A stretch of 50,073 bases of DNA from Dehalococcoidia bacterium (GTDB taxonomy: Bacteria; Chloroflexota; Dehalococcoidia; Lucifugimonadales; UBA3495), in contig JAKUQE010000001.1 of NCBI GenBank assembly GCA_022450395.1, positions 1-50,073 on the forward strand, written 5' to 3'. Position 1 is the stretch's first letter. Each line of letters begins with the position of its first letter. The notes beneath the pieces were generated by a model that was not told the origin of the DNA, made no database searches, and saw nothing but the letters and a program-made list of their open reading frames with translations. Of the stretch, positions 1-49,389 are shown piece after piece. The translations under genes and the position numbers were made by a program.

Positions 1-171
1 CAACGCCGCTACCACAAGGCCCTAAGCAACGTGACCCCTGATGACGTCCTGAACGGAAGACGAGAAGAGATCCTGATCAAGAGAAGGGAGGTGAAAGCTC
101 AGACCTTAGCCCAACGCAAACGCTACAACCGCCTGCTCCGGGAGTCCCAGAACGCCGCCATTTCCCCTTGA
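1..171 (+). CDS. IS3-family transposase, C-terminal end (cut by window edge)
   Basis: The reading frame is open from base 1 and stops at TGA 169-171. It encodes about 56 residues beginning QRRYHKALSNVTPDDV and continuing with a Lys/Arg-rich tail (GRREEILIKRRE). This is the characteristic extreme C-terminus of the rve integrase domain of IS3-type transposases, where the 'RYHxALxNVTPxDV' segment follows the last catalytic Glu. The catalytic DDE residues lie outside the window. Transcription runs toward the recombinase module. The family is recognised from the motif; the IS name and whether the upstream part is intact cannot be judged. Confidence 0.8.
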   Translation, partial: QRRYHKALSNVTPDDVLNGRREEILIKRREVKAQTLAQRKRYNRLLRESQNAAISP

Positions 172-214
172 TCTCCCCTTAACAAAAGTGTCCCACTTTT
201 GCTGGTTGCCAACA
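172..214 (+). mobile_element. Probable right end of the IS element (terminal inverted-repeat region)
   Basis: Just after the transposase stop there is an 8-bp inverted repeat, CAAAAGTG (183-190) and CACTTTTG (194-201), then GCTGGTTGCCAACA. Read on the minus strand this is TGTTGGCAACCAGCAAAAGTG, and TG-starting ends with AAAAGTGG-type sequence are common in IS3-family elements. The left end is outside the window, so the inverted-repeat pair and target duplication cannot be verified. Confidence 0.4.
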
Positions 215-364
215 CCTACAAAGCAAGGGAACTACCTGGGACAACGCAGATATGGAGACAGCGCGCAGGGCCATTAAAGACCTCGATGATCTTCTTCGAC
301 CCGGGTAGCGTGGTCTTCCCCACCTCCCGATACCCATATTTCGTTGGCCTCCGAGATTAGACCC

Positions 365-664
365 ATGGGCATCGATGTGCGAACGCGGAAGTTGGCCTAT
401 GTGACCTATCGGACGGAGAAATGGGCAACAATCCCGGAGAACGCTACTCAGGGCCTCAGCCGGTATACAACAAGCGTAGTAGTGGGTGACCGGGCCACCG
501 GGTGGCGAGGCCCGAATCCGATTATTCGTAGCCTGCGCGCGGCCTATCTCGTGGCTACCGATGCCCAGGACAGCCCAGGCGGTGTTGAATGGGCCGATGG
601 GGGCAGGGCATCGTCGCTCCGTCCGGCACCGGTATTCTCCGAAAGCGATATAAACAGCCATTAA
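365..664 (+). CDS. Hypothetical ORF followed directly by a hairpin
   Basis: Open frame of 99 codons from ATG 365 to TAA 662-664 (the ORF track extends it to 344). The start MGIDVRTRKLAYVTY loosely recalls the first strand of an RNase H-fold (GIDxGTxKxAY), but no later catalytic acidic motif is clear and the second half looks low in order. The best support that something ends here is a perfect 9-bp hairpin that begins one base after the stop. A minus-strand ORF (179-805) overlaps it completely and has no recognisable content. I do not recognise the family; it may be a fragment left by the mobile element. Confidence 0.25.
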   Translation: MGIDVRTRKLAYVTYRTEKWATIPENATQGLSRYTTSVVVGDRATGWRGPNPIIRSLRAAYLVATDAQDSPGGVEWADGGRASSLRPAPVFSESDINSH

Positions 665-691
665 AAGCCCCGGTAATATCAGCCGGGGCTT
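665..691 (+). terminator. Hairpin after the ORF ending at 664
   Basis: Perfect 9-bp stem AAGCCCCGG (665-673) and CCGGGGCTT (683-691) with a 9-nt loop. The following bases (cccattt) give only a weak T stretch, so termination is plausible but not certain. It would insulate the recombinase promoter from upstream reading. Confidence 0.45.
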
Positions 692-832
692 CCCATTTCG
701 AACGCAGTGTAGAACGCTGAGTCTGGTTAGCACACAACCCATATGTGGTGTATAAGGGCCACCTAGCCGGTGCGGCCCCCGGCCAGAGGGGCCCTTTGGT
801 GCCATGACGACCGTGCCTAGCTACACAAAAGG

Positions 833-861
833 TTGATATACTGTTAACAGTAGAATATAAT
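833..861 (+). promoter_or_regulatory. Near-consensus sigma-70 promoter with palindromic operator in the spacer
   Basis: TTGATA (833-838), a 17-bp spacer and TATAAT (856-861). The spacer holds a perfect 14-bp palindrome TACTGTTAACAGTA (839-852) between the two promoter hexamers, where a bound repressor would block RNA polymerase. The start ATG at 868 lies only 6 bp past the -10 box, which puts the predicted transcription start on or next to the start codon, so the message is probably leaderless. The small DNA-binding protein encoded directly downstream is the natural candidate for the operator ligand. Confidence 0.75.
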
Positions 862-867
862 TGCAAG

Positions 868-1032
868 ATGGTTAAGGGCGGCTGGACCAAGAATACCAAG
901 GTAGCAGCGGTTAGGCTGGACCTTCCCGTATATGAGCGGCTGATTGAAGCGGCCCGGCGTGAGGGGCTTAACCTCAACGATTACCTTAAGGCCATGGTCC
1001 AAGAGCGTCTTACAACGGAGGCCGAGTTATGA
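868..1032 (+). CDS. Small ribbon-helix-helix-like DNA-binding protein (54 aa)
   Basis: This gene is too short for the ORF track. ATG 868 to TGA 1030-1032 gives 54 residues. After a basic N-terminus comes a strand-like segment VAAVRLDLPVYERLIEAARR, then a turn and a second helix (EGLNLNDYLKAMVQERL). Strand, helix, turn, helix with a 'xxRLDLPxxxxxxL' opening is the ribbon-helix-helix (Arc/MetJ/CopG) pattern. Its stop overlaps the recombinase start in ATGA, so the two are translationally coupled. It probably represses its own promoter at the 839-852 palindrome and so controls recombinase levels, or acts as a recombination directionality factor. Fold and role are inferred from pattern and position. 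Confidence 0.6.
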   Translation: MVKGGWTKNTKVAAVRLDLPVYERLIEAARREGLNLNDYLKAMVQERLTTEAEL

Positions 1033-2610
1033 GGGAAAAAACCGCAGCGATATGGTGGCGGGTATCCACCGACGACCAACGGGAAATCAGCCCGGACACC
1101 CAGATTGGCGAGGCCCTGGCCCTGGCCGAGCAAGAGGGCTACAGCGTCCCTCCGGAGAACGTTATCGGCACCGACTGGAGCAGTCTTTCGGTGTGGGACA
1201 GTCCTACTATGGGCCAGATCAAGGCCTTGGTACAGGGCCGGGCCATAACCGCTATTTTCATGTACGACGCCGACCGTGGGCCTGCCAAACCGGCCAACCG
1301 GCTGATGTTCCGGGCACTCTGCGAAGAGAACGGCGTGGCTGTCCGATGCTGTCACGGTGAGATAGCCGGCGGAGAAATGGGCGAGCTGATGGAGTTCATT
1401 TCCGCCTGGAGTAAGGAAAAACAGGTCCGCCGTGCCCAGCAAGGAGCGAAGGATGGGTTACGGGACCGGGCCAAGAAAAGGGGCCTACCTACTAATGGGA
1501 TTGCCCCACTGGGCTACCATTTCCGCTACCAAGACCTCAACGGCAAGAAGATACCCGTATGGAACCGGATACCGACTACCCGGTGGCGCAAATGATATGG
1601 CGGCTGGCCCTGGAGGGTTGCCCCATGGGCCGGATAAGCCTGGAGCTATCCGCCCAGGGCATACCGGCACCGAAGGGTGGTGCCTACTGGAATCCCAGCA
1701 CTATAGCCCGCATACTCAAGAACCCCGTCTACGGTGGCCGCTATTACTCACTCCGCGAGACAGCAAAAACCCCTGTTCAGCGGCGCAAGGTGGACTCCTA
1801 CAGGTCGTCGGCCCAACCACTCCCCTTCGACGCTTGGCATTGGCTGGAGAACTTCCCTATTATGTCCCCCGTAGTATCTTGGGCCGAGTGGGAAACGGTG
1901 CAACGGCGGCTGTCCCAGAACAAGGCCGATGCCACCCGAAACGCCAAGCGCACCTACTGGCTTCGGGGAATGGTGTCTGCTCCGAAGACGGCAGGCGTCT
2001 GGTAGGCCACTTCAGCAAGGGCATCTACCGTTACGAATGCCCCGGCAAGCGAGGGAAGATCGGCGTTCCCAAGTGTGGGTGTCCGAACCTCCTTGGACCA
2101 GAGCTTGAGGGCCGGGTGTGGACCGAGGTTGCCGATTTCCTCGGAAACCCTGATATCTTCCAGGCCGAAATGGACCGGCGAGTGCATGGTCAAGAAGGCC
2201 AAGGGGCTGAGGCCGAGCGTAAGATTGCGGACCTTAATCGCCGCCTCGCCGACGTTGACCGCCGGGAGACCGAGTTGGTGGCCCTACGGTTGCGGGATGC
2301 GGTCTCTGAGGTAGCTCTGGACCGCAACGCCGCCCTGTTACGGGTCGAGCGGACTCACCTGACCGAGGAAATGGAGCGGCAGCGGGAAACCATGTCCACC
2401 CTGGAGCAAGGACAGGCCGCCGTCGCATCCTTGAAAGCCCTGAGAGAGCATATGTATCACCGGCTGGACTCCGCGACCCCGGAGGACCGCCGCACTGTCC
2501 TGGAGGCCCTGGAGACTCGCGTGACGGTCGGAGTTGGTGGAGTCTTGGAGGTCTCGATTGGCATCCCCCAGGGGGTGGCCGATTGTGTCCAGCGGACCCA
2601 GGGCCAGTAG
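1029..2610 (+). pseudogene. Large serine recombinase (integrase), two frameshifts
   Basis: Site-specific recombinase of the large serine family. Frame 1 (1029-~1570) carries the resolvase catalytic domain with RVSTDDQ (nucleophile Ser), YDADRG, and the SKEKQVRRAQQGAKDG helix. The second frame (~1559-1970) carries the Recombinase domain (SAQGIPAPKGGAYWNPSTIARILKNP is split by nothing but follows the first break). The third (~1970-2610) carries the zinc-ribbon region (CSEDGRR, YRYECPG, KCGC) and a long coiled-coil C-terminus. Homology continues across both breaks near 1565 and 1968, and each needs one missing base restored. Total length of about 526 codons is normal for the family. It is either a dead integrase or a gene with two sequencing deletions. 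Its stop lies inside sequence shared with the neighbouring truncated ATPase gene. Confidence 0.85.
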
Positions 2611-2840
2611 GGCGGCGCCCCCTCCCCCTCGTAGCACCAGCCCCAGAGGACCAGGGCCCCTCGCTGCTCGGCGTAGACCGCAAGCTCCTGCGCAATGCGT
2701 GTTTTGCCAACTCCCGGCTCGCCGGCAAGCATGACGATTCGGCCCTGGCCGGACATAGAATCATCGAGGGCTGCGGTAAGCTCGGCCATCTGCTGACGGC
2801 GGCCGATGAAACGACTGCCGTGGGAAAGAGACTGCGACAT
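2592..2840 (-). pseudogene. N-terminal fragment of a LuxR/cyclase-type AAA ATPase, cut by the recombinase element
   Basis: Start MSQSLSHGSRFIGRRQQMAEL at ATG 2840, then the Walker A motif LAGEPGVGKTRIAQEL, then the family signature CYEGEGAPPYWPWVR. All of these are typical of the first 80 residues of large regulatory ATPases (1000 aa or more) fused to LuxR, adenylate cyclase or TPR parts. After PYWPWVR (about 2592) the frame simply reads the antisense of the recombinase, so the rest of the gene is missing. The break sits exactly where the recombinase gene ends, which marks it as a probable attachment-site junction. The missing part should lie at the other end of the inserted element, outside the window. 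Confidence 0.8.
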
Positions 2841-2846
2841 GCGGCC

Positions 2847-2875
2847 AGTATAGCCTCGTCGTCTGCGGGGTTCCA
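2847..2875 (-). promoter_or_regulatory. Promoter of the truncated ATPase gene, probably leaderless
   Basis: On the minus strand TGGAAC (2875-2870), 17 bp, TATACT (2852-2847), with the ATG at 2840 only 6 bp further. The -35 hexamer matches poorly and the -10 well. The spacing repeats the leaderless layout of the 833-868 promoter. Confidence 0.4.
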
Positions 2876-3200
2876 GGGCCAGGCTGATGTCGGGTGCTTG
2901 CTTAGCTTGAAGGATTCGGAGGTAGGTTAACGTGGTGGCACAACCGTCGTTACGACATTTGAGGGGCTCTCCGGCTCCTCCCGATACCACCAATACTTAG
3001 ATTCTCATCTAGCTCAGCAATGCTCAGGATGCACTTTATCACTTGAAACGGAGGCTTGTCACCACCAAGCACGCACACTATTGTTTCATAGTGTCATGAA
3101 CCCCGAACACCGATTAAGATTTAGGCCCGAAGTAACCCCCACCGGGACAGCATTCCGTCCGGCAACATCCCGCTGGCCTACTCAATGCGCGGAACCACCA
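2876..3200. other. Intergenic stretch with no recognised gene
   Basis: About 325 bp between the ATPase fragment promoter and the 3' end of the molybdenum hydroxylase gene. I see no coding similarity on either strand, no tRNA and no strong hairpin. The short ORFs here are shadows of neighbours. Confidence 0.5.
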
Positions 3201-17373: not shown

Positions 17374-19677
17374 CTACGTCCCGTTCTTGGCCCAAAGAGC
17401 TTCCAGAACGTTGCCTGGAGACATGGGCAGTACGTCCATGCGGACGCCGATGGCGTTGTGGATGGCGTTGGCCATAGCGGCCATGGGAGGCACGATGCAT
17501 ACTTCACCCACTCCCCGTATCCCGAACGGATGGCCCGGATTCGCGATCTCCACGATCACCGTGTCGATCATCGGCAGATCCAAACTGGTGGGCATGCGAT
17601 AGTCCAAAAAGGACGAGTTGTCCATAACACCCGACTTGTTGTAGACGTACTCTTCGTTAAGGGCCCAACCGATGCCCTGAACTACTCCACCCTGGATCTG
17701 CCCTTCCACGTAACTGGGATGAATCGCCTTTCCCACGTCCTGTAGAGCAGTGTAACGGAGGACAGCAACCTTGCCGGTTTCGGGGTCAACTTCCACGTCC
17801 ACGATGTGCACGGCGAAGGAGTTACCCACGCCCGCCGGGTTCACGTTGCCCCGGCCCACCACCGGACCACCGGTGCCGATCAGCCGGCCCGCAAGCTGTT
17901 TGAAAGTCAGTTTCAGCTCCGAGTCGGACTTGTGGGAAGCCACGCCATCGGTGTACTCCACGTCGTCGGGACTGACGTCCCATATACGCGCGGCCCTCTG
18001 AATGAGTTGCTGTTTGATATCGGTCGCCGCTTCATAGCAAGCCCAGCCGGATTTGAAGGTCGCGCCGCTGCCGGCGCTCAAGGATGTGTACCCTACGGAG
18101 TCAGTGTCGCCGATGGTCGGATGGACGTCCTCGGCGGGAAGTCCCAGGACCTCGGCCACTTGCATAGCCATGGACGCCCGGCTTCCGCCGATGTCCGGCG
18201 AACCTTCAATCAGGCTCACGGTTCCGTCGGCATTGACACTGGCGGTGGCGCAAGCCGGCCCGGTTCCGTTGAACCAGAACCCGGCGGCGATGCCCCGACC
18301 CCGGTTCGGGCCCTCCAGGGGAGCCTTGTAGTGCTCGGTATCCATAGCTGCCGCCAATGTTTCCAGATAGCCCACTTTCTGTAACACCGGGCCGGGGATG
18401 CGGCGGCTCCCTTCTTTGGAAGCGTTCTTCGTCCGGAATTCCAGCGGGTCCATCCCTAGCTTTTCGCAGATCTCGTCGATGACCGATTCGGCGGCGAAGG
18501 CGGCAGCGGGCACGCCGGGGGCGCGGTAGGCGGCGGCTTTGGGTTTGTTGACCACCACGTCGTATCCTTCGATCCTCCCGTTGGCGACGTTGTATGGCGT
18601 CATGACGCACTGGCAAGCCTGGTTGATGGGAGACCCGGGGAACCCGCCGGCTTCGTACATCATGGTGATGTCAGCGGCGGTAATCATCCCTTCTTTGTTG
18701 GCCCCAATCTTCACTCTGATGTAACTGCCTGAGGTCGGTCCCGTCGCTTCGAACACTTCCGCGCGGCTCATGGAGACCTTCACCGGGCGGCCGGTTTTCT
18801 TGGAAAGCACTGCGGCCACCGGCTCTAGATAGATGACCGTTTTGCCCCCGAATCCTCCGCCGATCTCCATGGGAATCACTTTGATCTGGGAGACCGGGAC
18901 GCCCAGAACCAAGCCCGTAAGGTCTCGTATCTGGAAGTGGCCTTGGCTGCTGCACCAGATGGTCAATTTGCCGTCTTCTCCCCACATAGCGGTTGCGGAG
19001 TGGGGCTCGATGTAACCCTGGTGCACGGTGGCGGTACGGAATTCCCGCTCCACGACTATGTCGGCATCTTTGAACCCCTGTTCGGTGTCTCCCAACTCGA
19101 AGAAGAAGTGGTTGGAGATGTTGGTGGCTTTTTCTGTATCGTCGTCGTCGCGCAGCCCGCCGGGACGGATGTTGGCGTTTTCTAGGTTGGCCAACCGCTC
19201 GTGCAATATCGGGGCATCATCCTTCATGGCTTCCAACACGTCGGTAACGCCCGGCAGCACTTCGTAGTCCACGTCTATGAGAGAGATTGCGTGTTCGGCC
19301 AGATGGAGGCTGGTCGCCGCGATGGCGGCTACCGCGTGCCCCTTGTACAGGGCTTTTTCGCTGGCCAAGCAATTGTTGCTTATCCACTTGGGGTTGGCCA
19401 TGGCGCCTTCGCCCAAGTCGGCTATTCTCCCCCTGGGCTGGGAAAAATCCGCGGCGGTGACCACGGCCTCGACGCCCGTCAGAGCCAAGGCCCGGCTGGC
19501 GTCGATGGACTTGATTCGGGCGTGAGCGTGGGGACTGCGTAGAATCTTACCGTGGAGCAGTCTGGGAAGAGTGATGTCCGCGCTGTAACGCGCCCGCCCG
19601 GTTACTTTGTCGTTGCCGTCGTGGCGTATGGGCCTCGTGCCCACCACGTTGAATTCCTGGTTGGAAAGTACCACCAT
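17374..19677 (-). CDS. Xanthine dehydrogenase-family molybdopterin-binding subunit
   Basis: About 767 aa. I choose ATG 19677 with AAGAGG eight bases upstream over GTG 19686. The hammerhead domain is GNDKVTGRARYSADITLPRL. Mo-cofactor motifs are GGGFGGKTV and AAYRAPGVPAAAF; the C-terminus has RGVGEVCIVPPMAAMANAI with the catalytic Glu. The architecture is standard (not permuted like 3201-5252). As with 9101-11335, no iron-sulfur or FAD subunit is next to it. Inside the catabolic gene block it would make the first hydroxylation of an aldehyde or N-heteroaromatic. Confidence 0.9.
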   Translation of the reverse strand: MVVLSNQEFNVVGTRPIRHDGNDKVTGRARYSADITLPRLLHGKILRSPHAHARIKSIDASRALALTGVEAVVTAADFSQPRGRIADLGEGAMANPKWISNNCLASEKALYKGHAVAAIAATSLHLAEHAISLIDVDYEVLPGVTDVLEAMKDDAPILHERLANLENANIRPGGLRDDDDTEKATNISNHFFFELGDTEQGFKDADIVVEREFRTATVHQGYIEPHSATAMWGEDGKLTIWCSSQGHFQIRDLTGLVLGVPVSQIKVIPMEIGGGFGGKTVIYLEPVAAVLSKKTGRPVKVSMSRAEVFEATGPTSGSYIRVKIGANKEGMITAADITMMYEAGGFPGSPINQACQCVMTPYNVANGRIEGYDVVVNKPKAAAYRAPGVPAAAFAAESVIDEICEKLGMDPLEFRTKNASKEGSRRIPGPVLQKVGYLETLAAAMDTEHYKAPLEGPNRGRGIAAGFWFNGTGPACATASVNADGTVSLIEGSPDIGGSRASMAMQVAEVLGLPAEDVHPTIGDTDSVGYTSLSAGSGATFKSGWACYEAATDIKQQLIQRAARIWDVSPDDVEYTDGVASHKSDSELKLTFKQLAGRLIGTGGPVVGRGNVNPAGVGNSFAVHIVDVEVDPETGKVAVLRYTALQDVGKAIHPSYVEGQIQGGVVQGIGWALNEEYVYNKSGVMDNSSFLDYRMPTSLDLPMIDTVIVEIANPGHPFGIRGVGEVCIVPPMAAMANAIHNAIGVRMDVLPMSPGNVLEALWAKNGT

Positions 19678-49149: not shown

Positions 49150-49389
49150 AATGAGAGGCCATTACGGCCCGAATCGGCCTGGACCTGCTGCGACTACGCC
49201 TACATGTTAAGAGAGCGCGATGCCGAAGGAGCCCGGACCAAGGCCATCACCCTGCCGGACGAGTCCCTGGCCATTTCCAGGGAGCTGGGTATGCGGCCCT
49301 TGATGGAGCGGGTGCTGTCTCGGCGGGGCTTAATTGATCGAGTTCCAGATGTGACTATGCGCCGTCCACTGATCCACTCACGGGCCTAA
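49150..49389 (+). pseudogene. C-terminal fossil of a regulatory ATPase/cyclase protein
   Basis: The frame reads RPESAWTCCDYAYMLRERD, then DESLAISRELGMRPLMERVL and SRRGLI. 'ESLAISxELGMRPLMERVLSRREI' is the conserved C-terminal TPR end of large Chloroflexota regulatory ATPases, the same family whose N-terminus lies at 2592-2840. No other part of such a gene precedes it. The tail after residue RV is unrelated, and stop codons lie upstream. Confidence 0.65.

Follow-up and report, generated by a model that had tools for sequence, protein, structure and literature searches.

The 3' end of a large serine recombinase gene meets the 5' part of an AAA_16 / LuxR-type (LAL-like) regulator gene, in the opposite orientation, at the codons for PYWPWV. 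With a probability of about 0.9, we interpret this site as the right end of a mobile element that has integrated here, its large serine integrase joining a 42-bp attP to an attB made of the WPWV codons of LAL-like AAA_16 genes. The window, the whole stretch of DNA that was analysed (50,073 bp), is contig C1 in full of its source genome (G000), a draft assembly of 359 contigs that is 79% complete. The proposal of the initial annotation, that an attachment site lies inside the PYWPWV codons of a regulatory ATPase, is supported by recurrent junctions, a shared core and an intact attP. Features of the window are collected in Table 1.

Table 1. Features of the integrated element and of its target gene in the window.
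Feature	Position	Strand	Remark
IS terminal part (transposase C-terminal coding end, terminal sequence ...TGTCCCACTTTTGCTGGTTGCCAAC)	1-214	+	inserted in element; contig breaks there
3' remnant of element gene (...KGTTWDNADMETARRAIKDLDDLLRPG, then stop)	215-306	+	cut by IS; NORP26 L067 has one unbroken frame
RHH-like (ribbon-helix-helix) 54-aa protein gene	868-1032	+	overlaps recombinase start by ATGA; kept in NORP26
Large serine recombinase (Resolvase, Recombinase, Zn ribbon)	1029-2610	+	PF00239, PF07508, PF13408 on joined frames
Inverted-repeat arm of recombined attP half-site, CCGATTGTGTCCA	2579-2591	+	perfect complement of arm at other element end; both arms in G222:C76
Core GGACCCAGGGCCA common to attP and attB	2594-2606		13 bp; ATPase W-P-W-V codons on - strand
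5' part of AAA_16 / LuxR-type (LAL-like) regulator gene	2596-2840	-	cut after PYWPWV; AAA_16 E=1.2e-16
Interval holding crossover	2596-2600		ACCCA on +, TGGGT on -; target-specific bases
Symmetry centre CA/TG	2599-2600		predicted exchange dinucleotide
Recombinase stop codon TAG, target-supplied	2608-2610	+	complement of Pro-Tyr codons CCC TAC

A regulator gene cut by a recombinase-bearing element

The ATPase gene starts with an ATG at 2840-2838, and its frame, which begins MSQSLSHG, reads MSQSLSHGSRFIGRRQQMAELTAALDD...GEPGVGKTR...GAPPYWPWVR, the recognisable stretch (MSQSLSHG...GVGKTR...) ending in EGEGAPPYWPWVR. The match to AAA_16 covers positions 1-71 of the 167 in the profile and all similarity is lost beyond, where the frame runs on as WTQSATPWGMPIE..., antisense to the recombinase; the earlier description of a frame recognisable up to PYWPWVR and then lost is thereby borne out. 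With the insertion point near residue 80 of a protein of more than 780 residues, Walker A is kept, and the rest of the nucleotide-binding domain is gone, together with the later TPR-like and LuxR-type HTH regions present in paralogs, so that this paralog is very probably dead. In intact paralogs, PYWPWVQ leads into RAYV-type sequence. The source genome holds about 20 matches to the ATPase family and nine sites that match TAYTGGCCNTGGRTNCAR exactly (0 for a reversed control pattern), in agreement with the earlier remark that the motif recurs in paralogs. Because PYWPWV is encoded by many sister genes, each genome offers the element a whole set of matching sites to land in, and the size of the family suggests that the loss of one paralog may be tolerable.

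The recombinase is spread over three + strand frames (1029-1595, 1559-2005 and 1432-2610). Compared with the intact copy in NORP26 (G222), recorded as a Dehalococcoidia bacterium and among the close relatives of the window genome, it has a 4-base deletion at about 1559/1560 and a 1-base deletion at about 1976. The end of the frame had been placed correctly at 2610, and these two frameshifts upstream are what we add. The window copy looks inactive and, if the frameshifts are not assembly errors, the element could not move by its own enzyme. The motif WRVSTDDQ, read directly in the recombinase, fits an N-terminal serine-recombinase domain, and the joined frames carry the catalytic serine domain, Recombinase domain and zinc ribbon of a large serine integrase, so classed as a family member of which the window copy is frameshifted. 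A Pfam search found no DUF4368 in the recombinase, and IMG/VR contained neither a relative of it nor an exact match to the junction pattern. The 54-aa RHH-like protein encoded just upstream, which gave NikA-like (E=0.0037) and MatP_C (E=0.008) matches, both below the curated cut-off, is a candidate accessory, directionality or mobilization factor.

Further to the left, the element is collinear with that of NORP26 from window position 214 to 2645 (at 90%), and the IS is missing from the NORP26 element. The IS end (window 1-214) has 82-91% matches on seven other contigs, several of them at extreme contig ends. Pfam and PHROGs gave no match for the gene remnant at 215-306, searches of the element's small proteins and of the IS end against NCBIfam and PHROGs were likewise negative, and the few element genes seen of this incomplete element include no phage structural or packaging genes.

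Reciprocal junctions and the anatomy of the attachment site

A protein search of relatives yielded six further right junctions in four other genomes of the family, and the recombinase C-terminus is fused to the same PYWPWV codons at all seven, in five genomes: the window itself, C57 and C20 of the congener G001, G006:C208, both ends of NORP26 contig NVWX01000035.1 (G222:C50), and G220:C60. The recombinase is full-length in G006:C208 (55% identity) and truncated in G220:C60. Since flanking genes differ among these junctions, they represent separate insertions or paralogs, and the arrangement recurs in at least five genomes at different paralogs. The case that was to speak against an attachment site, a junction without a recombinase, was not seen: every right junction comes with recombinase sequence, the copies at G220:C60 and G222:C76 being truncated. 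One more candidate, G000:C63, was rejected, its contig beginning about 60 bp before the site and its sequence being a 93% ortholog of the G001:C20 locus.

The window does not reach the other boundary, as the contig starts inside the IS that interrupts the element; it holds no second copy of the core, GCGGACCCAGGGCCAGTAG occurring once. Left junctions were first found by searching four genomes with an intact ATPase: apart from full-length genes, a few matches began exactly at the motif. Orphan 3' halves of the ATPase, each beginning at the motif behind one common element end, lie on G000:C201, G000:C60, G001:C39 and G222:C14, the first three sharing the preceding sequence ...CGATTGTGTCCA joined to CTGGCCCTGGGTCC. 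When 250 genomes of the same order were scanned for the left-end pattern, exact or one-mismatch matches occurred in G000, G001 and G222 only, all of which carry the recombinase, and two new loci were gained, the left junction on G222:C14 and an attP on G222:C76; two-mismatch matches in the order were treated as chance. Both the missing ATPase 3' part and the matching core at the other boundary, which the initial annotation had expected at the far end of the element, are thus present on other contigs and in other genomes. On G222:C76 the left end runs directly into the right end, forming an intact attP (CCGATTGTATCCACTGGCCCTGGGTCCTCTGGACACAATCGG). Since only a 72-residue remnant of the recombinase C-terminus adjoins it, this locus is not a clean free circle and may be a decayed or tandem copy.

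No single contig carries both junctions of one element among the seven right and four left junctions. An empty ortholog of the window's ATPase locus was not found in a synteny comparison with eight relatives, which gave scattered gene-level matches only. Intact ATPase paralogs, in which the motif is uninterrupted, were used as a stand-in for the same-locus ortholog.

An assembly chimera, or a random deletion fusing the recombinase end to the ATPase start, would suit a fragmented draft (359 contigs, 79% complete) in which contigs break at these repeats, and ambiguous bases occur in loci L046 and L067. Five genomes, assembled independently of one another, nevertheless show the junction at exactly the same base and at different paralogs, and there are reciprocal junctions and an intact attP; the recurrence already refutes such an artefact, which we consider scarcely credible.

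The left ends also yielded other observations. Near the left end, G000:C60 and G222:C14 have in common an alpha/beta-hydrolase segment of 0.97 kb (89%), yet their ATPase halves match no further than the core, which suggests that the segment travelled with the element as cargo. Beside the left element end on G222:C14, two IS ends lie back to back (GTTGGCAACCAGCAAAAGTG/CACTTTTGCTGGTTGCCAAC). The contig G006:C273 was rejected as a left junction, its upstream sequence being a different, N-formylglutamate-amidohydrolase-like frame without the arm. At this locus (L070, G006:C273:7000-9223) the ATPase 3' half from AIRSYV is fused to that frame, a different rearrangement near the same place. The short contig G000:C105 (L053) starts in the same IS as window 1-214, carries an ATPase start and upstream region that are 78-85% like window 2750-3095, and also has stretches resembling window 17461-19671 and 49239-49327.

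The core was defined by aligning the seven right junctions, four left junctions, one attP and five intact attB sites. The element ends consist of perfect 13-bp inverted arms, CCGATTGTGTCCA/TGGACACAATCGG, flanking the core TGGCCCTGGGTCC that is shared with the gene; the arms are absent from attB, only the core being common to attP and attB. Read in gene orientation, the right junction is TAC TGG CCC TGG GTC CGC joined to TGGACACAATCGG, and the left junction is CCGATTGTGTCCA joined to C TGG CCC TGG GTC CAG. Both genes do read through the 19-base overlap described earlier, of which only 13 bp (2594-2606) form the core that attP and attB have in common. Symmetry holds for 17 of 21 positions across the 42-bp attP, a level that 0 of 200,000 shuffles reached.

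Among the right junctions the proline codon varies (CCC, CCG, CCT) and so must derive from the target, GTC being uniform there and GGC in the distant G006 copy, and left junctions retain the target's GTC or GTG. The crossover therefore falls within TGGGT, a 5-bp interval at window 2596-2600, the limit set by the left junctions being the weaker of the two as it rests on one variant copy (C60). From the symmetry of the site, the exchanged dinucleotide is predicted to be TG/CA at 2599-2600. A short attP and attB, a small core and inverted attP arms are the attachment-site features of a large serine integrase, and reciprocal attL and attR junctions are present in the hosts (seven right, four left).

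On this basis the element's own large serine integrase would carry out the reaction between attP, with its 13-bp inverted arms around CTGGCCCTGGGTCCGC, and attB, the conserved TGG CCN TGG GTN stretch that encodes WPWV in LAL-like AAA_16 regulator genes, an insertion that the many paralogs presumably make tolerable. The integrase gene runs into its own attachment site and so takes its stop codon from the target in the integrated state, while its frame would go on for 14 residues in the joined attP. It could also be supposed that the element was placed by another enzyme, for instance through the IS (1-214) or through homologous recombination of paralogs, with the recombinase as a passenger, given that the IS is inserted nearby, that the recombinase is broken in the window and that the ATPase family is repetitive. 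We regard this as very unlikely, because in every copy the recombinase gene reaches the site with its 3' end, the attP layout is symmetric like that of serine-integrase sites, the collinear NORP26 element has no such IS, and sister recombinases are placed in the same way against other conserved genes (SRAP, dnaN).

An integrase frame that runs through its own site

The recombinase closes with QRTQGQ before the stop, and these final residues are read from the core. The stop codon (TAG or TAA) comes from the target in 7/7 right junctions, where it lies opposite the Pro-Tyr codons of the ATPase, and it is TAA where the tyrosine codon is TAT, as at the NORP26 junctions. At the position of the stop, attP and the left ends read CAG TGG, and the frame stays open for 14 more codons, continuing in attP as WTQSDYRFSFTVHR to a stop and in the four left ends as the same sequence or a close variant of equal length. 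As 14 open codons have about an even chance of arising and are not significant alone, the 14-residue tail of the attP form is put forward as a putative extension of the protein.

The double reading of the site might instead reflect a selected sense/antisense pair, with regulation of the ATPase by the recombinase frame, rather than an integration scar: 19 bases are read in both genes, and the stop codon depends on the target. The ATPase, however, retains nothing of its nucleotide-binding domain past Walker A and none of the domains that follow, and its 3' half is found elsewhere next to the other element end, which leaves such a pair with next to no likelihood.

The layout itself is already known from the Dehalococcoides ssrA islands, in which dsiB always overlaps attL and has its stop codon only outside the island (PMC3146451); the authors suggested that dsiB may be complete only in the circle (PMC3146451). 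Here, too, the integrase frame runs through the attachment site and its stop codon lies in target DNA. Integration could conceivably act as a switch on the integrase, the circle giving the 14-residue tail and insertion at PYWPWV swapping in a target-encoded stop, with altered activity or directionality and the same design in the sister integrases at dnaN and SRAP; we hold this to be unlikely, though less so than the alternative origins of the junction weighed above. Since the overlap of integrase and attachment site known from Dehalococcoides is shared by integrases of related bacteria that have other targets, the effect of tail loss on integration could be put to a direct test.

Sister integrases and known systems

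The PYWPWV integrases form one clade in our tree (monophyletic, 95/92), whose sister is L019 (G003:C86), a recombinase of 47% identity with a 3' end that overlaps, antisense, the VSTLVN..ND C-terminal motif of an SRAP/YedK gene. More distant recombinases, L049 (G000:C300), L021 (G035:C52) and L024 (G026:C9), have 3' ends that adjoin dnaN at its own 3' end or overlap with it there (MPMFVQW; dnaN encodes the DNA polymerase III beta subunit). These dnaN and SRAP (YedK) recombinases of the same bacterial family likewise end at a conserved protein-coding motif, and the abutting of a recombinase 3' end on such a motif is a habit wider than the PYWPWV case. Their sites lie at gene 3' ends, whereas the PYWPWV site is near residue 80 of more than 780.

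Large serine integrases with conserved coding targets include those at Mg chelatase/ATP-dependent protease and prolyl isomerase genes (Durrant et al. 2022, PMC10083194), and the present case resembles them in its three-domain recombinase, its use of one conserved codon stretch as attB and the disruption of the gene. It differs from the cases described in that article's text in its target, a multi-copy LAL-like regulator family, and in its Dehalococcoidia lineage; the word 'ATPase' is absent from the article text. As in the multi-targeting TndX-like clade with DUF4368 described there (PMC10083194), one recombinase type is found at several genes. Unlike in that clade, DUF4368 is lacking, and what provides several targets is the presence of one motif in many paralogs rather than a relaxed AT-rich specificity, all targets found belonging to one paralog family.

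The Dehalococcoides ssrA islands and their DsiB are closer in layout, being of the same class with a recombinase 3' end that overlaps the attachment site and a stop outside the island. They target tmRNA, which a repeat keeps functional, and carry a DsiA/ParB/Mom module (PMC3146451). Here, by contrast, an internal coding motif of an ATPase gene is cut, and the available upstream sequence shows only the RHH gene and the 3' remnant of an unassigned gene.

The kind of system, a site-specific large serine integrase at a conserved coding motif, is therefore known; as far as the literature searched goes, the target and the attachment-site pair are new. For an integrase from a marine lineage of which little has been cultivated, they provide a complete predicted attP/attB pair with its crossover. 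They also provide a clear case of an element that has many sites within reach because its target is a codon motif found again and again in an expanded family of regulators. Two related recombinases, L048 (G000:C268) and L025 (G031:C46), share ACCGGACCAAGGTTAGGATGGGGG or a close form of it at their 3' ends.
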